NCBI GenBank assembly: GCA_030834125.1
Contig: JAURFW010000007.1
Location: 1 to 64,000, forward strand
Direction: 5' to 3'
Source: Bacteroidota bacterium
Lineage (GTDB): Bacteria > Bacteroidota > Bacteroidia > NS11-12g > UBA955
Length of the DNA: 64,000 nucleotides
Below the pieces are notes generated by a model. That model searched no databases. It worked only from the letters and a program-made list of their open reading frames with translations, and had not been told where the DNA came from. The position numbers were made by a program, and so were the translations under genes. Every line of letters begins with the position of its first letter. The first letter of the stretch is position 1. This document shows, piece by piece, positions 8,045 through 35,232 of this stretch.

Positions 8045-9010
8045 ATGATAGTTGTCACTGGCGCATTTGGTTTTATTGGTTCTGCGTTATTAGCGGAACT
8101 TCAAAATATAGGTTACGGTAGCCTGGTTGCAGTTGACGACTTTTCAGTTGAAAGTAAGAAATACACTTTAGAAAACATAAAAACCCTTCTCCGTATTAAT
8201 CGTGAAGACTTTCACTTTTGGTTAGAAAAAAATCAAAAAGAGGTACAAATAGTTTTTCATATTGGTGCTAGAACGCGAACTGATGAGTTTAATTGGGATA
8301 ATTTAAATCTTCTTAATGTTCACTACACAAAAAAGATTTGGCAGTTATGCACTGATTATTCTATTCCACTGATTTACGCATCTTCCGCAGCAACTTATGG
8401 AGATGGGAAATTAGGATTTTCCGATAAACATGAGATGATATCAGGACTAAAGCCGTTAAATCCATATGGAGAGAGTAAACAGCAGATTGATGAGTGGATT
8501 TTACAACAATCCAAAACACCACCATTTTGGGCTGGTTTTAAATTTTTTAATGTCTTCGGGCCAAATGAATATCATAAAGGGCGCATGGCCAGTGTTGTTT
8601 TTCATGCATTTAATCAAATCAACGAAACAAAAAAAGTAAAGCTATTTAAAAGTTATAATTCTAAATATACAGATGGTGGTCAATTAAGAGACTTCGTTTA
8701 TATTAAAGATGTAGTTTCTGTATTGATTTACTTCATGGAGAATAGGAAACACAGTGGAATATATAATTTAGGCTCTGGTACTGCTCGTACATTTGAGGAG
8801 CTAGCGGAAGGAGTTTTTAAAGCACTAAATATTCCTTCTAATATTGAATTTATAGACATGCCTGAAGACATTAGAGAGAATTATCAATATTACACTAAGG
8901 CGGAAATGGAAAAAATTATTGCCGCAGGATATACAAGAGCTTTTTGGTCTTTCAAACAGGCGATTTATGATTACGTAATTAACTATCTAATTAAAAGAGA
9001 GAGATATTGA
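8045..9010 (+). CDS. hldD: ADP-glyceromanno-heptose 6-epimerase-like NAD-dependent sugar epimerase
   Basis: A 321-residue extended short-chain dehydrogenase. The nucleotide-binding motif is GAFGFIG (6-12). The catalytic residues are Ser113/114 (YASSAATYG) and the Tyr141-x3-Lys145 pair (YGESK). The motif HIGARTRTDE and the FNVFGPNEYHKGRMASVVFH stretch are characteristic of HldD, which makes ADP-L-glycero-D-manno-heptose for the LPS inner core. A related UDP-sugar epimerase cannot be fully excluded. Its TGA stop overlaps the TTG start of the histidine kinase gene by 4 bases, so the two are translationally coupled. Confidence 0.88.
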   Translation: MIVVTGAFGFIGSALLAELQNIGYGSLVAVDDFSVESKKYTLENIKTLLRINREDFHFWLEKNQKEVQIVFHIGARTRTDEFNWDNLNLLNVHYTKKIWQLCTDYSIPLIYASSAATYGDGKLGFSDKHEMISGLKPLNPYGESKQQIDEWILQQSKTPPFWAGFKFFNVFGPNEYHKGRMASVVFHAFNQINETKKVKLFKSYNSKYTDGGQLRDFVYIKDVVSVLIYFMENRKHSGIYNLGSGTARTFEELAEGVFKALNIPSNIEFIDMPEDIRENYQYYTKAEMEKIIAAGYTRAFWSFKQAIYDYVINYLIKRERY

Positions 9011-12000
9011 ATACAAAACAGAAAATAGCATGGATAATTACAATTTTGGGAATTGTATTTATTTCAGTTGGGTATTATGCCGAGGAGAAAAGTGCATCAA
9101 TTGATTACAATAAAAAGCTACAAGATTTTATACATCATTCTGAAATAGAAGTTAGTAAAAAGGATAGTCTACTTTATGAATTTGGTCAAGATGGTCTTTA
9201 CTTGCATAGCGAAGTCGAGTTAGATTCATTTTCTAAATTTACCAATCTCCAAATAATTGTATCGCATGAGAATAAGCCTAAGTTTTGGACAACAAATGAT
9301 TACGCTGTTAAGCCTCAGTTCCAAAATGATTTTTCAGTAATTGACCAAAATGGTGTTTACTTGGCTGTTTGGAATAGGATCGAAGGAGATTATATATATA
9401 GTTTTATTTATAATATTTTTGGGCTTAACGCTGCATTCCAAAGGTCAAATACCGAAAATGAAAAAAAGAAATTCAATGTTTTTCTTTCTGGAAGTGAATT
9501 CTCGGATGCGCAAAGGATAAAGTTTTATGGTAAATGGATTCCTAAGGAGAAAGAAAATTACTTTTTGCAGGCTAATATTGGGCAAGAAGACTCAAGTTAT
9601 TTAGGATGTTTATCCGTCTTTTTAGGGTTCATTTTTATTTTTTTAGGTGTTTATCTGATTCGTGTGTTCAGAACTTCATGGATTTGGGGGATTATCAATA
9701 ATTTTATCCTAATTTTCTTCATATACTTGATTTCAACTTCTCAATTTTTACGAGAATCATTAAACAAATTTGAATTTACTGAATTTTTAATTGGAGAGAG
9801 CTTTAATTTTTCAATTTTAGGTCTGCTTCTTGCTGCATTTTCCCTTTTTAGTATAACACGTATTTGCATTAAAGGTATTCCAAAAATTGATTTTTCAAAG
9901 CTCAAGAATGGGGAAAAAATAATGGCATTTTTTCTGGCATTTGCTGGTTTCTCCATTTTTGCAATCGATTTTTTTGGAATATGTTTAATAACCGAAACAG
10001 GGCTAATTAATTTTGATCCTTTGGAGATTTTGGTGCTTGATATTAATAGTCTTTTGTTTGGTATTTCATTAATTTTAATTGCGGCTGCGGCACTTACCCT
10101 TTTAAGAAAAAGTACAGAGGTTAACCAAGTGCACTGGACTTGGAAATCATCTCCCTTGGTATTGATTCTCATCCTCATTTTTTTGATTAAAGGACATAAT
10201 CTAGGAATTTATATTTTCGCAATTTTTGGAATTATATGGATATTAGTTAATTCATATCTGAAAACAAATAAAATCTTTACGAAGTGGTTCACTAATATAG
10301 TATTACCGACTCTTTTATTTGCTGCATTTTTTCACTTTCAACTAGAACATCAAGATAAAAAAAGACGTGAAGAATTAACAAGTTTCTTGAATGTTCAATA
10401 TGATAATAATGTGAATGAATTACTGTTGGAAGCCGATATGGCCTTGAAATCTGATTTGATTTCATTGCATATTGCAACAGAGACCAAAGGTGGAAAACCA
10501 CTTTTAGAAAGTAGTTTAAGACAAAATTATTTCACTACATTAAATGAGTTATTTGAGATATCTATTTTTGATTTTGATTCTAAGGGTAGAAATCTACACC
10601 AAGATAATGAAGTAGACTATCAAACATTAAATTCTATTTATTTCGATGATGGTGGACTACAAATTACGGAAAGATTCTTTTTACTGAGCAATAAAAGACT
10701 TCGTGGTTCTTATATTGGTAAGTTCGATTTGACCTTGGATTCTAATCTTTTGGCACATTATTTTATTGTATTATCCCCTAATTATTCTAATACTCGCGTA
10801 CGTTTAGGCGAAGTGCTTCAACCGAGTAAAATATTTGATTATATAAATAGATTTGGCTATTCATATGCTATTTACAATCAAAATAAATTATCGAAGCGCG
10901 CCGGAAAATATGATTATGCAACTTTTTTAGATTGGGAAAAGCTCGATCAAGATGGAGATGGATATTATTTATCTGATGATGTAGAGCATATTATTAGATA
11001 TGATGCTTTCAATAATATAATTGTGGTATCACAGCCTCTGAATGGGATTATAAATTACCTTCAAAGATTTACTCTTTACGTTCTTGGTGTATTTTTTATT
11101 GCTTTTGTTTTTTATTGGTTGATATGGGTTAGGAATAAATTTCTGAAGGATCTACTTAATGCTAAAATCAACCTTTCAGAAAACCCATTATTCCCGAGCG
11201 AAACGGGAATAGAAAGTTGGTTTATTAGTAGAAGATTACAATTGTACATTTCATGGCTGATTCTCTCAATATTTATACTAGTAGTAATTTTAACTTTTAA
11301 CTTTTTTACCAATTATCATAGTCAAAAACAGTCTAATGAGCTTACTTCAAAAGCAGTAAATCTTGCTAATAAAATATCCGGTCAATTAGATTTAGATCAA
11401 TTAAAGAATAAATACGAGGTCGGGTTATTATATGACCTTGCGGAATCTGTAGGTGTAGATATAAATATTTTTGATAAGTATGGAGAATTAATAATGTCTA
11501 CAAATCCTAGGATATTTAAGGAAAAATTCAAGTCTACTTTGATGAATCCATTTCCATTTGGAAAATTTGCAAATAATGAGTCTTCGATAATCCTTACAAA
11601 TGAAAAGATATCTGATTTGAACTATTTATCGGCATATACCGTAATTGCAGATAATAATTTAGATGTAAGAGGGTTTCTGAATATACCGTATTATTCAAAT
11701 CGCCAAGATCTATATAGAGATGTATCATCATTTTTAGTAACGGTTATTAATGTGTTTGCGATTTTATTTGCAATTACATTAATCCTAACCCATGTAATCG
11801 CAAGAAAAATCACTTCTCCACTCATTCTTATCCGTGAAAAACTATCTCAAATGCAGTTGGGAGAGAAGAATCAAGAATTAGACTGGAATAGGATGGATGA
11901 AGTAGGATTGTTAGTGAAGGAATATAACAACATGGTTCAGCAATTGAGTGAGAGTTTAAACAGACTTTCAGAAGCTGAACGCCAGGGAGCTTGGAGAGAA

Positions 12001-12660
12001 ATGGCAAAACAAGTGGCCCATGAAATAAAGAACCCATTAACGCCCATGCGCCTATCATTACAACATCTACAATTTGCAATGTCTCGGGGCGATGAAAATA
12101 TCCAAGAAAAGATGAAAAATACCATTGATCTAATGATTCGACAAATTGATTCATTGAGTTCAATGGCGGAAGAATTTAGCACTTTTGCAAAAATGCCTGA
12201 ACCCAAACTTCAAGAAGTAAACTTGAACTTAATAGTTTCAGAAGCTGTTCAACTAATTCAAACTGAAACAGGACAAGAATTTGCGTGTGATTTACATCTA
12301 AATCAACCTGTCATTTCTGCTGATCCTCATCAATTAGGCAGAATATTTACAAATTTATTGAAGAACGCAATCCAGGCTATTCCTGAAAAGCGTATACCAA
12401 AGATTTCAGTAAAAATATTATTAATTGGTAATAATACTATTCAAGTTCAGGTTGAAGACAATGGTAAGGGTATTGAAAGGAATCTTCATAATAAAATTTT
12501 CAGCCCAAACTTTAGTACAAAGACCAGTGGTATGGGATTGGGATTAGCAATAACAAAGAAAATCATTGAACAATTTGGGGGGAGGATATATTTCGAAACA
12601 AAATTGAATGAAGGAACTATATTCTTTGTAGAATTTCCATTACTCAAAATGGGACAATAA
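9007..12660 (+). CDS. Very large membrane sensor histidine kinase with HAMP domain
   Basis: A 1217-residue protein with a TTG start overlapping hldD. Residues 1-420 hold one N-terminal and about eight further membrane helices. A soluble region follows (about 430-690), then two membrane helices (about 695-715 and 750-775), an extracytoplasmic region, another helix near 915-935 and a HAMP linker. The kinase core has the H box with His1005 (KQVAHEIKNPLTPMRLS), N box (NLLKNAIQAI), G1 (VEDNGKGI) and G2 (GMGLGLAITKKI). The H box resembles NtrY. No response regulator lies nearby, so its partner is unknown. Confidence 0.88.
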   Translation: MNTKQKIAWIITILGIVFISVGYYAEEKSASIDYNKKLQDFIHHSEIEVSKKDSLLYEFGQDGLYLHSEVELDSFSKFTNLQIIVSHENKPKFWTTNDYAVKPQFQNDFSVIDQNGVYLAVWNRIEGDYIYSFIYNIFGLNAAFQRSNTENEKKKFNVFLSGSEFSDAQRIKFYGKWIPKEKENYFLQANIGQEDSSYLGCLSVFLGFIFIFLGVYLIRVFRTSWIWGIINNFILIFFIYLISTSQFLRESLNKFEFTEFLIGESFNFSILGLLLAAFSLFSITRICIKGIPKIDFSKLKNGEKIMAFFLAFAGFSIFAIDFFGICLITETGLINFDPLEILVLDINSLLFGISLILIAAAALTLLRKSTEVNQVHWTWKSSPLVLILILIFLIKGHNLGIYIFAIFGIIWILVNSYLKTNKIFTKWFTNIVLPTLLFAAFFHFQLEHQDKKRREELTSFLNVQYDNNVNELLLEADMALKSDLISLHIATETKGGKPLLESSLRQNYFTTLNELFEISIFDFDSKGRNLHQDNEVDYQTLNSIYFDDGGLQITERFFLLSNKRLRGSYIGKFDLTLDSNLLAHYFIVLSPNYSNTRVRLGEVLQPSKIFDYINRFGYSYAIYNQNKLSKRAGKYDYATFLDWEKLDQDGDGYYLSDDVEHIIRYDAFNNIIVVSQPLNGIINYLQRFTLYVLGVFFIAFVFYWLIWVRNKFLKDLLNAKINLSENPLFPSETGIESWFISRRLQLYISWLILSIFILVVILTFNFFTNYHSQKQSNELTSKAVNLANKISGQLDLDQLKNKYEVGLLYDLAESVGVDINIFDKYGELIMSTNPRIFKEKFKSTLMNPFPFGKFANNESSIILTNEKISDLNYLSAYTVIADNNLDVRGFLNIPYYSNRQDLYRDVSSFLVTVINVFAILFAITLILTHVIARKITSPLILIREKLSQMQLGEKNQELDWNRMDEVGLLVKEYNNMVQQLSESLNRLSEAERQGAWREMAKQVAHEIKNPLTPMRLSLQHLQFAMSRGDENIQEKMKNTIDLMIRQIDSLSSMAEEFSTFAKMPEPKLQEVNLNLIVSEAVQLIQTETGQEFACDLHLNQPVISADPHQLGRIFTNLLKNAIQAIPEKRIPKISVKILLIGNNTIQVQVEDNGKGIERNLHNKIFSPNFSTKTSGMGLGLAITKKIIEQFGGRIYFETKLNEGTIFFVEFPLLKMGQ

Positions 12661-18673: not shown

Positions 18674-18750
18674 TTAAATGCCACGATTGGGTTTTTCAAC
18701 TTGTCTATAGGTTGTACAGCCAAAGCGGAGTGCATACATGATAGCTTTAA

Positions 18751-19284
18751 ATGACCGACAAAGAACTTGTGGAAGGGTGTATCCGAGAAGACAAAATTGT
18801 CCAACGGGAACTGTGGAATCGATTTTCCGGGAAGTTATTGTCGCTATGCATGAGGTACTGTAAAAACACTGAAGAAGCTGAAGACGCACTAATGGAAGCA
18901 TTTGTGAAAATATATAACAACATGGACCGATTTCGTTACCAGAGTTCACTAGAAACTTGGATGAGAAGGATCTGTGTTAATGTTTCCATTAACAAAATAA
19001 GGGCCAGAAAAAATATTTGGCAGGATCTTAGCGAGTCCGAGTACGAACTTGGCTATGATGATTACAGTTTTGAAAATCTTCAATTACAAGATTTATTAGA
19101 TCTAATTAATACACTTCCAGATGGGTACCGAGCGGTATTCAATATGTTTGCGATAGAGGGGTTTTCGCATAAAGAAATTGCAAATGAACTTGGGATTGAT
19201 GAAGGAACAAGTCGTTCTCAGTTGGCGAAGGCCAGGAAATCATTGCAAAATCATTTGAATAAAATGAAAGGAGGGGAGTCGTGA
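18751..19284 (+). CDS. ECF-type RNA polymerase sigma factor
   Basis: A 177-residue sigma-70 family protein with only regions 2 and 4. Region 2 covers about 20-90 (LLSLCMRYCKNTEEAEDALMEAF, then WMRRICVNVSINKIRA). Region 4 covers about 110-165 with the helix-turn-helix FAIEGFSHKEIANELGIDEGTSRSQL. It is followed, with a GTGA overlap, by a membrane-anchored protein expected to be its regulator. The regulon is unknown. Confidence 0.95.
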   Translation: MTDKELVEGCIREDKIVQRELWNRFSGKLLSLCMRYCKNTEEAEDALMEAFVKIYNNMDRFRYQSSLETWMRRICVNVSINKIRARKNIWQDLSESEYELGYDDYSFENLQLQDLLDLINTLPDGYRAVFNMFAIEGFSHKEIANELGIDEGTSRSQLAKARKSLQNHLNKMKGGES

Positions 19285-20687
19285 ACTGGAAAGATTTCGA
19301 GAATAAATTTCAGGAATTGAATGCTCACTCTTTAAAACCCTCGGCAAATGCAACTTTTGAAGAAGTGATGAACAGGCGGAAGAAAAAGAAGCGTCGTGTA
19401 ATTATTTATTGGAGTTTTGCCGGTTTATTGTTTGTAGGAGGTTTAGGAGTTGCACTCAATTCAAAAACAAACAGTTCGAAATCTAATATTGATAATAAAG
19501 TTTCAATAGAACAAACCGAAAACACTATAATTGAAAAGAATATTGTTGACGCTCCAAAAGAAATCGATTCGGATAATTTAATTGTTACTAATCAACAGTA
19601 TTCTGAAAATACAGAAAGTCAATCTACTCATATTACTTCTAAAAATCCAAAAATTACTAAAACGGAATTATCAGAAAGATCTACACGGGCTGCTGCATTA
19701 AATTTGGAATCTATTAGTTCAGGACAAAGTAATCTTCACTATTCAAAGCAAAAACCTTGGATTGAAGTTATGTCTTTGGAAATGTCAAGAAAAATTAAAA
19801 ATGCTGCTTCTTATAGAGAATATTTAAATAAGAATAACAACCAAACTAATTCTAGGAATATATCCAACACAAACTATTATTCAAGTAATCTCAATTTTAA
19901 TTTTGGCGGTAAATCCCTTAAACCAATTAGTTTAAATTGGAATCCCCAACTTGGACGAATTGATTGGATAGATGGACCTTGGGATTTGGACCCTCGTACA
20001 CCTCATATTGACAAAAGACCAATGTATGTGGAATTCTCGGCAATAACCGGTAGTCGTTCCCAAGTAGATTTTGATTTGAAACAGACTACAAGTATTTTGG
20101 GTACACAGTATATGGCACAATATCAAGTGTTGTTATTGCGAGAAACTTGGGATGAATTCCTTTGGGGATTTGGACTTCAGTATACCGAGTGGATAGGAAA
20201 TGGTCAATGGCGAAATGTGGAGAATTTTGATGTAAAAGTGATAGATACCTCCTACAGAATTGTGAAAGTTCCTGGTTTGCCCAATCAGAAAATTCAAATT
20301 ATCGATACGCTGGTAAAACAAGAATCCAATACCACAACAGGGAACATAGGGTATAAAATGGATAATTTAGCTTTACCTATTTCCTTTAGAAAAGTTACCT
20401 CAGCTTTTAGAACTCCTTTAAGATTTGGGGCTCAATTGTCACCCGGATTCACAACTTACACAAGAGGGGAGTATTTCTCGGCTACTGAATATCAAACAAT
20501 TGGTAAATCTAGAAGACCAACCTTTAATGCGAAATTATCGGCAGGACCGTTAGTTCAAGTTACGGGTGATTTCAGTCTAATAATTGAACCTTCAGTAATG
20601 TACCATTCATTTTTAGATATGCAAAATAATTTTAATGGAAGGTGGTTTACAGGTCTTGGTGTTTCAATGCAGTGGAGGATTAAATAG
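19281..20687 (+). CDS. Membrane-anchored putative anti-sigma protein with C-terminal beta-rich domain
   Basis: A 468-residue protein with a GTG start that overlaps the sigma factor stop by 4 bases. About 40 N-terminal cytoplasmic residues end in a strongly basic patch (NRRKKKKRR). One membrane helix follows (about 41-60), then a Ser/Asn/Thr-rich linker (about 65-200). The C-terminal ~250 residues are rich in alternating aromatic/polar strands and end in VSMQWRIK, like an outer-membrane beta-barrel. Such sigma-linked proteins occur in Bacteroidota. The anti-sigma role is inferred from position; no zinc-binding anti-sigma motif is seen. Confidence 0.7.
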   Translation: MNWKDFENKFQELNAHSLKPSANATFEEVMNRRKKKKRRVIIYWSFAGLLFVGGLGVALNSKTNSSKSNIDNKVSIEQTENTIIEKNIVDAPKEIDSDNLIVTNQQYSENTESQSTHITSKNPKITKTELSERSTRAAALNLESISSGQSNLHYSKQKPWIEVMSLEMSRKIKNAASYREYLNKNNNQTNSRNISNTNYYSSNLNFNFGGKSLKPISLNWNPQLGRIDWIDGPWDLDPRTPHIDKRPMYVEFSAITGSRSQVDFDLKQTTSILGTQYMAQYQVLLLRETWDEFLWGFGLQYTEWIGNGQWRNVENFDVKVIDTSYRIVKVPGLPNQKIQIIDTLVKQESNTTTGNIGYKMDNLALPISFRKVTSAFRTPLRFGAQLSPGFTTYTRGEYFSATEYQTIGKSRRPTFNAKLSAGPLVQVTGDFSLIIEPSVMYHSFLDMQNNFNGRWFTGLGVSMQWRIK

Positions 20688-32235: not shown

Positions 32236-35154
32236 TTATTTTTTCAGTCCTCGATAAACAATTTCCAAAAGCTTTCCCCGATATCCTTTTTTTGCTAAAT
32301 AATTAGGTCCTCCGTAAGGGAATGTTCTGTTTGATAAGAAAATAAATATTAATTTTTCTTTGGGATCTGCCCATGCCCATGCGCCAGTAAATCCAGAGTG
32401 CCCAAATAATCGAAGCGGTGCATAGTCAAAAACATTATTCCATTTTAATTCATTATTTTTTTTCAAATTTGGAAAACCGTTCGGTTTATCAAAGCCTAAT
32501 CCCCGGTAATTATTGCCGTCCAAATAGGTTTTAGTAAATTGTCCAATGGTTCTAGGTTTTAAAAATTTTTTATTTTCCCAAGTTCCACCATTCACAAGCA
32601 TTTGCATAATTACCGCCAACTCCTCCGTTGTACTAAATAAACCTGCATTGCCGGCCACACCTCCTAATAATAATGAGCTAGGATCATGCACAATTCCTTC
32701 GATCCTTCCTCGTTCCAAAACAGTCGAGATTTCAGTTGGTGCACAACGTGTTATCAATCCCTTTTTCCAAGGGTTGAATGTTGTTAATTTCAATCCTAAT
32801 GGTTCATAATATACAGAATCTACATATTTATCTAAATCCACACCTGTTATGGATTCTACCCATTTCCCTAATATAATTGCATTCAAGTCGGAGTATACAT
32901 ATTTACCAATATTATCAACTTTTAATTCGGCAATTTTAATCCAGTCCCAAACGGAATCAGACCATCGTTTTTCAGTAAAAACTTGTGAACTCAGTAGTAA
33001 ATGTTTTTCTTCATCAAATTCAAAATCAGGGGTAGTCCAATATCTGTAAGACTTATCCTTAATAATATCAGAAGCCAATGGTAGAAATGGTACAAGTCCT
33101 GATTGATGTGTTAGGAACCTATATATAGGGGTCTCACTCCACGAATTGCTATCTAAATCCTTCCAATATGTTCTAATCGAATTTCTTAGGTCGATCTTCT
33201 GTTCTTCAACAACTTTCATAACGGCGATAGTCATGGCAGCAACCTTCGTTACACTAGCAATGTCGTATAACGTAGATTCATTCGAACTATATTTTGAATT
33301 ACTTACGGGATATCCACCTCGCGATTCTTTGTATGCGATTTTCCCATTTTTAATAACCAATAATTCTGACGATTGCGACACATTATTGAGAAGAATACTA
33401 TCCATAATCCCCGCTAAAGATTCAGATTCATCACAATAGAAGCCTAATTTGAGTGGGTTTTCTTTTTCCCAAATAGATTTTTTTCGGGGGATGTTTCTCG
33501 CGTTATTATCAAATAACATTCCAAGTTTTACAGGACTACTTAATGATCTATTTGGAGCTAGTCCTCCAAAGATTTTATCAACTGCGGCTTCTAAAAAGTC
33601 ATTACCCGTTTCCCATCCTAAAATTAAGGGAATATTACATTCCAAATCTTGCAGTGCATACACATTTCCACAATGAATAAATGCAGAATTATTTGAGTAT
33701 GGAAGTAGAGATAGAACAGATTTTAACAAAGCTGGAATTTCTCGGGTTAATGGACCAAACATTTTTTGATCCCCGTTTATAAGTATGCATTTTTTTGCTC
33801 GTTTTATTTGAGATATGACATCTTCTGGAGAAGAATTGTTTATCCAGTGTACCTGTGATATACTGTGGTACTTGCATCGGTTTAAAAAAGCATCTGGAAT
33901 GGTTCGTCCGAAATTGAAAATATCTAATGTATCATCGAATTCTTTCCATGGAAAACCATTGGATTTTCCGTAGAATTGAATACTTTCTCTGGCAGATTTT
34001 TCGCTGTGATTTAATGAATTAAGATCGGAATAGATATTATTGATTTGAGAGAATTTATTTTTTGGAATGCTTAATCCTAAATCATATTTATTATTAAGAA
34101 TGCGGAAAACAGTTTTAGCAAGTTTAACGCTATCGAATTCACCGTTCTGATATAAATCATAAGCTTTATTTATTATTCCTTCTGGGTCACCTGGCATGCA
34201 TAAAATATCATTACCCGCTTCTAATGCTTTAATTCCGGCAGTTATGGGATCAAAATGTTTAGAAATTCCATGCATATTAAGGGCATCGGTAATAATTAAG
34301 CCCTCAAAACCAAGATCTTCTCTTAAAAGACTGGTAATTACCTTTTTTGATAGAGATGTTGGTGTTGAAGTTTCGTCTAGAAATGGAATTTCTAAATGTG
34401 CCACCATTATTGACTTTACTCCTTCATCGATTAGTTTATTAAATGGTGCTAAATCTTTTTTAATAGATTTTTTATCATGAGTAACGTGTGGTAGTTCTAA
34501 ATGAGAATCTGCAATGGTATTCCCATGGCCCGGGAAATGTTTGGCACATCCCCAAACGCCTGCACTTTCCATCCCTTTATTATAAGCAGATGCTTGTTCT
34601 CCAATTTTGGTAGGATTATCACCGAAGCTTCTAAACCCAATAATGGGATTGTTAGGGTTACTATTTACATCTACAACAGGCCCGAAGTTTATATGAACTC
34701 CAAGTTTTTTAAGTTGTTGCCCAATTTCTTTTCCCGTTAAATATGAAGTTTCTAAATCATCTATGGCTCCAAGAGTCATTGCATAAGGGAATTTCTTTAC
34801 ATGATCTAATCTCATTGACGGCCCCCACTCGGCATCCATTCCAATAATTAATGGCGTTTTTGCTTGTTGTTGATAGAAGTTTACAGCATGTAAATGTGTT
34901 GTTGGAGTACCTTGAAAGAATATTAAACTTCCTACTTCAAGTTTTTCAACTGCATAAATTACTTTATTGTCTAATTCAGGGGTACGGGTCCATACCGGAA
35001 TCATAAGTGTTTGAGCTACCATTTGTTTGAATGTTAGCTTTTTCATTATGCTGTCTACCCATTGTTGTTGGCTTTGGCCCGACAAAATATTTGTGCCAGC
35101 GAGGGACAATATTAATGTTAATGAAAAATAAACTGTACGTTGCCAAAACCACAT
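32236..35154 (-). CDS. Fusion of GH3 beta-N-acetylglucosaminidase-like and beta-lactamase-type serine hydrolase domains
   Basis: About 972 residues from the ATG at 35154, which gives a signal peptide (WFWQRTVYFSLTLILSLAGT); an in-frame TTG lies 15 bases upstream. The GH3 part (about 30-400) has KHFPGHGNTIADSHLELP and the nucleophile Asp in ITDALNMHGI. A GH3 C-terminal-like region follows. The second enzyme (about 590-970) has SxxK (DIASVTKVAAM), YSDLNAIILG as the YxN motif and HSGFTG as the third motif. The combination points to periplasmic peptidoglycan recycling or remodelling; substrates are inferred. Confidence 0.92.
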   Translation of the reverse strand: MWFWQRTVYFSLTLILSLAGTNILSGQSQQQWVDSIMKKLTFKQMVAQTLMIPVWTRTPELDNKVIYAVEKLEVGSLIFFQGTPTTHLHAVNFYQQQAKTPLIIGMDAEWGPSMRLDHVKKFPYAMTLGAIDDLETSYLTGKEIGQQLKKLGVHINFGPVVDVNSNPNNPIIGFRSFGDNPTKIGEQASAYNKGMESAGVWGCAKHFPGHGNTIADSHLELPHVTHDKKSIKKDLAPFNKLIDEGVKSIMVAHLEIPFLDETSTPTSLSKKVITSLLREDLGFEGLIITDALNMHGISKHFDPITAGIKALEAGNDILCMPGDPEGIINKAYDLYQNGEFDSVKLAKTVFRILNNKYDLGLSIPKNKFSQINNIYSDLNSLNHSEKSARESIQFYGKSNGFPWKEFDDTLDIFNFGRTIPDAFLNRCKYHSISQVHWINNSSPEDVISQIKRAKKCILINGDQKMFGPLTREIPALLKSVLSLLPYSNNSAFIHCGNVYALQDLECNIPLILGWETGNDFLEAAVDKIFGGLAPNRSLSSPVKLGMLFDNNARNIPRKKSIWEKENPLKLGFYCDESESLAGIMDSILLNNVSQSSELLVIKNGKIAYKESRGGYPVSNSKYSSNESTLYDIASVTKVAAMTIAVMKVVEEQKIDLRNSIRTYWKDLDSNSWSETPIYRFLTHQSGLVPFLPLASDIIKDKSYRYWTTPDFEFDEEKHLLLSSQVFTEKRWSDSVWDWIKIAELKVDNIGKYVYSDLNAIILGKWVESITGVDLDKYVDSVYYEPLGLKLTTFNPWKKGLITRCAPTEISTVLERGRIEGIVHDPSSLLLGGVAGNAGLFSTTEELAVIMQMLVNGGTWENKKFLKPRTIGQFTKTYLDGNNYRGLGFDKPNGFPNLKKNNELKWNNVFDYAPLRLFGHSGFTGAWAWADPKEKLIFIFLSNRTFPYGGPNYLAKKGYRGKLLEIVYRGLKK

Positions 35155-35232
35155 ATTGCAAATGAACAAAAATTAATTTGTAAGAAATTTGTGATTCTGT
35201 ATTTGTGGAAGGAATGTGGAGTTTTTTGGGTG

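Follow-up and report, generated by a model that had tools for sequence, protein, structure and literature searches.

An ECF sigma factor gene of the das type and, directly behind it, the gene of a larger partner protein, a candidate anti-sigma factor of the Dma type, lie in the 64,000-nucleotide stretch of Bacteroidota DNA that was analysed here (the window), with 4 nt shared between the two reading frames (Table 1). The sigma factor passes the Pfam cut-offs for regions 2 and 4. For its partner, searches of Pfam, NCBIfam and PHROGs gave no significant match, and one of PDB sequences with the partner profile yielded nothing credible (best E 0.49). Pfam matches identify the neighbouring genes as those of an FKBP-type isomerase, upstream of the pair, and of an M13 peptidase, downstream. 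Elsewhere, the window encodes a single protein that combines a glycosyl hydrolase family 3 domain with a beta-lactamase-family domain (32236-35169, reverse strand) and a histidine kinase of 1217 residues with a HisKA domain, an ATPase domain and, below threshold, a match to HAMP (9007-12660, forward strand).

Table 1. Features of the sigma factor/partner locus, in window coordinates
Feature	Position	Strand	Remarks
Candidate ECF promoter of the pair	18680..18707	+	-35-like GCCACG 18680-18685, 16 nt, -10-like TGTCTA 18702-18707; 43 nt 5' of the sigma ATG
ECF sigma factor gene, das-type (177 aa)	18751..19284	+	ATG start; Pfam; tree with Bacteroidaceae das-type sigmas
Partner gene, Dma-type anti-sigma candidate (468 aa)	19281..20687	+	GTG start
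Cytoplasmic N-terminal domain, about residues 1-40, presumed sigma-binding segment	19281..19400	+	Invariant F26, V29, M30, R33; linked by profile to other ECF partners
Inner-membrane helix, about residues 41-58	19401..19454	+	Hydropathy; AlphaFold2 helix 26-55
Disordered periplasmic tether, 187 aa, residues 59-245	19455..20015	+	pLDDT, length, low conservation
Predicted C-terminal 8-stranded outer-membrane-type barrel, residues 248-468	20022..20684	+	AlphaFold2, structure matches, profile link to relatives

The pair and its candidate promoter in related genomes

Relatives of the partner are present at E <= 0.001 in 44 of 97 genomes taken from the genus, family and order (the window's own counted). 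The genome collection, overlapping with this set, provides 35 partner loci on separate contigs, all from metagenome-assembled bins of Bacteroidota groups and some, to judge by record titles, from Lake Baikal, Erken or a pond; some of these loci are near-copies of each other. Because a sigma gene stands directly 5' of the partner gene in 34 of the 35 (the last, L054, ends at a contig edge), the pairing is not a matter of chance, and the coupling claimed in the original prediction is borne out with its gene boundaries exact. The partner start lies between -11 and +5 nt from the sigma stop in 32 of the 33 loci for which a start was assigned and a sigma factor found, the exception being L033, whose start call is doubtful. 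Identity to the window's proteins is 54-70% for the sigma factors (22 relatives) and 19-38% for the partners (28 relatives).

The M13 peptidase gene is near the pair in only eight of the 35 loci and is not claimed as a component of the system. Neither is any third operon gene widely common: the next gene is convergent in most of the relatives with enough sequence. Two loci, and these only (L060 and L062), have a co-directional gene of 498-506 aa located 10-18 nt 3' of the partner gene.

Most loci carry GCCACG or GCAACG, followed after 16 nt by TGTCTA or TGTCAA, 38-44 nt before the sigma start, with little conservation of the spacer between the two boxes. Scanning 35 upstream regions (the window's and those of 34 loci) for the best match over spacings of 13-19, with ties going towards 16, gave a spacing of 16 in 34 of them and agreement at all 12 positions in 20; at least 10 of the 12 positions agreed in 31 of the 35, as against 14 of 700 shuffled upstreams, a count that overstates independence since the 35 are related. 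The presence of this candidate promoter before the sigma gene in most loci suggests that the pair is autoregulated from GCCACG-16-TGTCTA. The scan lends no support to a regulon extending beyond the operon: with 0 mismatches, GCMACG-N16-TGTCWA occurs in the 2.3 Mb genome at the window site only, and near matches are fewer than those of the reversed control pattern (13 versus 29). In the window alone, a mean of 1.51 matches with up to 2 mismatches is expected by chance. Three of the 13 near matches precede a start codon, namely those of the pair itself, of a DUF1573 gene and of a gene for a 488-aa secreted-looking protein. The DUF1573 gene (L184:1030-1464, reverse strand, on contig C39 of the same genome) is preceded by GCAACG-16-CGTCTA, and this site or a close form of it is kept in five of 12 orthologue loci, L194, L195, L196 and L198 among them, at 36-49 nt before the start (the start is misassigned in L197, and the upstream sequence of L204 is truncated). 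Other ECF sigma factors of the genome may be the owners of that ECF-type promoter site.

Layout of the partner protein

The AlphaFold2 model of the full-length partner, made with 29 sequences, has helices at residues 3-15 and 26-55, pLDDT below 50 across residues 51-240 and a confident all-beta domain that starts at residue 248. With a mean hydropathy of 1.99 in the best 18-residue segment and the helix at 26-55, the single inner-membrane helix of the original prediction is upheld. The short basic cytoplasmic segment that had been placed before it is present but is more than basic, being a conserved domain of about 40 residues that presumably, to judge by its conservation, binds the sigma factor. 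The flexible linker, put at about 140 residues, is disordered as claimed; its length is 187 aa instead, within a range of 140-258 aa (median 177) for 29 family members. The mean frequency of the commonest residue is 0.59 for residues 1-40, 0.24 for the tether (59-240) and 0.56 for the barrel (245-468).

Modelled alone, the C-terminal domain reaches a pLDDT of 90.6 and a pTM of 0.76 (AlphaFold2). In our reading of both models, it consists of eight strands (248-261, 270-289, 293-328, 336-364, 367-399, which is broken, 413-426, 431-445 and 451-467), connected on one side by turns of 3, 2 and 4 residues and on the opposite side by longer loops that include the long hairpin of strands 293-328 and 336-364. 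An even number of strands puts both ends of the barrel on one side, which is what a tether in the periplasm calls for. The best match among solved structures is NspA (Z 14.5, 3.9 A, 152 residues), with porin III of the Legionella Dot/Icm machine (Z 14.2), OmpA (Z 13.8 to 12.7), OprF and PagL also among the best; the best E given by Foldseek is 9.3e-6. These matches speak for the fold and not for its location, and the predicted barrel rests on 29 sequences. Structure prediction has thus returned a barrel of the outer-membrane type for the domain that was originally described as barrel-like, and not a soluble periplasmic fold; in the cell, this domain would sit in the outer membrane. Outer-membrane proteins often have F as their last residue, as a C-terminal signal, and so do 18 of the 29 family members. 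The window partner ends in WRIK, in keeping with the aromatic and basic C-terminus that had been pointed out, but this ending is no rule of the family.

What such a barrel would do can be read in more than one way. It might be a passive outer-membrane anchor, with the tether or the width of the periplasm being what senses, in the manner of a mechanical or spacing gauge, and with the sigma factor released by a cut in the tether or a widening gap between the membranes. A tether that is always long and hypervariable in sequence, while both of its ends are conserved, fits such a gauge. On the other hand, the tether varies almost twofold in length, the barrel is about as conserved as the N-terminal domain, and the long hairpin suggests a function beyond anchoring; we regard the passive anchor as unlikely.

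The partner might also be an inner-membrane anti-sigma factor whose sensor is a soluble, lipocalin-like periplasmic barrel, to which the tether would give reach and which would bind a periplasmic ligand. Soluble barrels do turn up in the structure search (the best being kievitone hydratase, Z 9.9, and PsbO, Z 9.7), and four related partners of 226-384 aa (L068, L075, L085 and L089) have the N-terminal domain and the membrane helix and, by length and sequence, no barrel, which argues that anchoring in the outer membrane is not essential for such pairs. Nevertheless, the 24 best structure-match rows, at Z 14.5 to 9.9, are all barrels of the outer membrane or designed transmembrane ones, and the eight strands, with short turns opposite longer loops, as well as the frequent C-terminal F, also speak against a soluble sensor. 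So does PF13568, an outer-membrane barrel family, whose cut-off is passed by three of eight related partners scanned (L071, L095 and L080); three others match it under the cut-off (L087, E 8.6e-5; L072, 0.0032; L070, 0.076), and L082 and the short L068 have no match to it. On balance, a soluble sensor appears highly improbable.

Probable kinship with the Dma proteins and the variety of outer ends

A design of the Dma1/Das1 kind has reportedly been described in gut Bacteroides, in 2024. In the accessible part of PMC13088901, Dma1 is presented as the first of a class that occurs solely among Bacteroidota. Dma2 of B. thetaiotaomicron is described there as an N-terminal anti-sigma domain and a transmembrane helix, joined by a long disordered tether to a C-terminal barrel; dma2 adjoins an ECF21 sigma gene; the order das2-dma2-DUF4943-DUF4858-NMO is that of BT_1559-BT_1555; and das2, like neighbouring genes, ranks with the most strongly induced genes of a dma2 mutant. 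A protein chain that physically spans the distance from the inside of the cell to the outer membrane, as the original prediction had it, is therefore already published, for the Dma proteins (PMC13088901, accessible part).

As far as that account goes, the window pair has the same plan as Dma1/Das1 and Dma2/Das2: an ECF sigma factor followed by a partner with N-terminal domain, transmembrane helix, disordered tether and C-terminal barrel. The induction of das2 in the dma2 mutant, as given there, also agrees with the self-regulation suggested above for the window pair. The differences are that the Dma proteins are found in gut Bacteroides, whereas the window pair belongs to a separate, environmental group of Bacteroidota; that the window partner, at 468 aa, compares with 351-356 aa for two Dma2 orthologues, to which it is only distantly related in sequence; and that the DUF4943 and DUF4858 genes of the dma2 locus are not adjacent to the window pair.

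Bacteroidaceae counterparts for comparison came from L118, in which genes for an ECF sigma factor, a 356-aa partner, DUF4943, DUF4858 and nitronate monooxygenase follow one another as BT_1559 to BT_1555 do in the accessible description, and from L119, which has the same order as far as its translations show; by gene order, the genus is probably Bacteroides. (The first DUF4943-based locus, L107, has the DUF4943 gene without sigma factor or partner; a wider draw gave L118 and L119.) The L118 partner passes the cut-off of another outer-membrane barrel family, PF13505, and has relatives in 70 of 121 genomes of the Bacteroidaceae. Frames of about 550-620 aa with a Dma2-like barrel also occur in Bacteroidaceae genomes and perhaps represent the Dma3 proteins of the literature, to which a sigma domain is fused.

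Profiles were made of the window family (A, 29 rows), of other Bacteroidota ECF partners (B, 22 rows) and of the L118 family of Bacteroidaceae (C, 30 rows), with the N-terminal domains compared without their transmembrane segments. The B partners came from a scan of the phylum that matched 41 of 395 genomes; apart from the window's own, 29 of its loci were examined, and 26 of these hold a sigma factor of the das type. L067, L076 and L090 have no sigma gene and were dropped as compositional matches; also outside profile B are L089, L091, L094 and L086, the last of them doubtful, with a sigma factor outside the main group of the tree described below. The barrel profile was built without the barrel-less L068, L075 and L085. 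The N-terminal domains of A and B match with P 2.3e-11 (score 50.7; at most 14.5 in 100 column shuffles) and those of B and C with P 2.1e-11; for the barrels, the values are P 8.6e-8 for A and B (score 58.4; at most 22.8 in 50 shuffles) and P 1.8e-20 for B and C. Direct comparison of A with C is not significant, for the N-terminal domain with 30 C rows (prob 6.8, the best of 100 shuffles scoring higher) as for the barrel (prob 12.3), nor is that of the window family with a Bacteroidaceae Dma2 profile of two rows, so that the link to Dma is drawn through the B intermediates.

The sigma factors were compared in a tree of 59 rows, with C represented by a sample of 16. Those of the window family form one clade (support 100/99) within a group of 54 rows (support 93/96), in which branching is without resolution and which holds all 11 window-family sigmas, 25 of 26 from B, 15 of 16 from C, and C69, C76 and C91 of the window's own genome. 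Outside it fall C17, C18 and C33 of the same genome, L086 and L134, of which the last is on the opposite strand and is probably not its partner's sigma factor. The window sigma factor shares 33% identity with the L118 orthologue of das2. In the tree, it groups with das-type sigmas, which the accessible literature describes as ECF21. A FecI/FecR type of cell-surface signalling with a TonB-dependent receptor, which an ECF sigma factor with a single-pass partner in a Bacteroidota genome might bring to mind, deserves hardly any credence, as the sigma factor scores 93.4 bits against a cut-off of 126.4 for TIGR02985 (which we take to cover the FecI-like group), Pfam gives the partner no match to FecR at E values up to 1, and the adjacent genes are those of the FKBP isomerase and the M13 peptidase and not of a receptor. 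Sigma factor and partner are, very probably, a sigma/anti-sigma pair of the Dma class; by analogy with the published Dma1 and Dma2, the partner would inhibit its sigma factor.

Seven sigmas of the window's genome match the window-family sigma profile. The C91 partner has a layout like that of the window partner, its barrel lying just under Pfam cut-offs; the C76 partner is of similar look with a weak barrel match (E 0.22). The C69 partner (L100:396-1502, reverse strand) ends in PF13585, the CHU_C Type IX secretion signal domain, which it matches with 44.3 bits against a cut-off of 27. A das-type sigma gene adjoins the partner in 25 of 30 loci of this kind, its own included (relatives among L150-L177), and the CHU_C cut-off is passed by nine of nine partners scanned, that is, by the C69 partner and eight of eight others. 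The N-terminal domains of these CHU_C-type partners (profile D, 18 rows) match those of B with P 2.6e-11 (score 48.9; at most 14.3 in 100 shuffles) and those of the L118 family with P 1.2e-8; the match to the window family is weak (prob 12.7). As judged from these sequences, the N-terminal module is joined to different outer ends: a barrel, none at all, or a CHU_C domain. This exchange of outer ends is the most interesting lead to come from the analysis. No anti-sigma factor with a CHU_C or T9SS domain was found in the literature searched, a coverage that most subscription papers lie outside. In accessible accounts, signalling to an ECF sigma factor is affected in Porphyromonas by PorA, a distinct surface protein that carries a T9SS domain, and in Flavobacterium psychrophilum an ECF promoter class lies over T9SS genes, with one ECF/anti-sigma pair.

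A possible route from the outer membrane to the sigma factor

From what was computed here (the gene pair, the layout of its domains, the barrel fold, the links between families and the conserved promoter-like boxes), the most likely mechanism can be sketched. At rest, the approximately 40 cytoplasmic residues of the partner would keep the sigma factor tied to the inner membrane, and the tether would cross the periplasm to a barrel in the outer membrane, both of whose ends would be periplasmic. The trigger would lie at the barrel, which might fail to insert or to assemble, might be lost from the outer membrane, or might bind a ligand with its outer loops. The partner would then be cut or displaced, and the freed sigma factor would transcribe its own operon from GCCACG-16-TGTCTA, together with other targets.

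In the RseA/RpoE/DegS system, a single-pass anti-sigma factor relays the state of the envelope to an ECF sigma factor. By analogy, the window pair may share this logic, with the difference that an outer-membrane barrel would form its sensing end; the window partner has no Pfam match to RseA up to E 1. That a signal of outer-membrane assembly or integrity brings about release through regulated proteolysis, as RseA would suggest, is a guess, a possible one to which we give somewhat less than even weight.

A broader proposal, more speculative and in our estimate rather doubtful, is that one sigma-holding module (N-terminal domain and helix) is fitted with swappable ends, each pair gauging its own export pathway, and that the anti-sigma factor is in effect a test substrate anchored in the inner membrane. 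Each outer end would reach its proper place only if its pathway works, which would mean barrel assembly for the barrels and the T9SS for CHU_C; the window's own genome would then have three barrel or barrel-like pairs and one of the T9SS type.

With the window pair, the Dma design would reach beyond gut Bacteroides into an environmental group of Bacteroidota that is separate from them, and a candidate promoter would come with it. If the outer ends each serve as test substrate for an export pathway, this would explain how outer-membrane assembly and type IX secretion may be watched from inside Bacteroidota cells.
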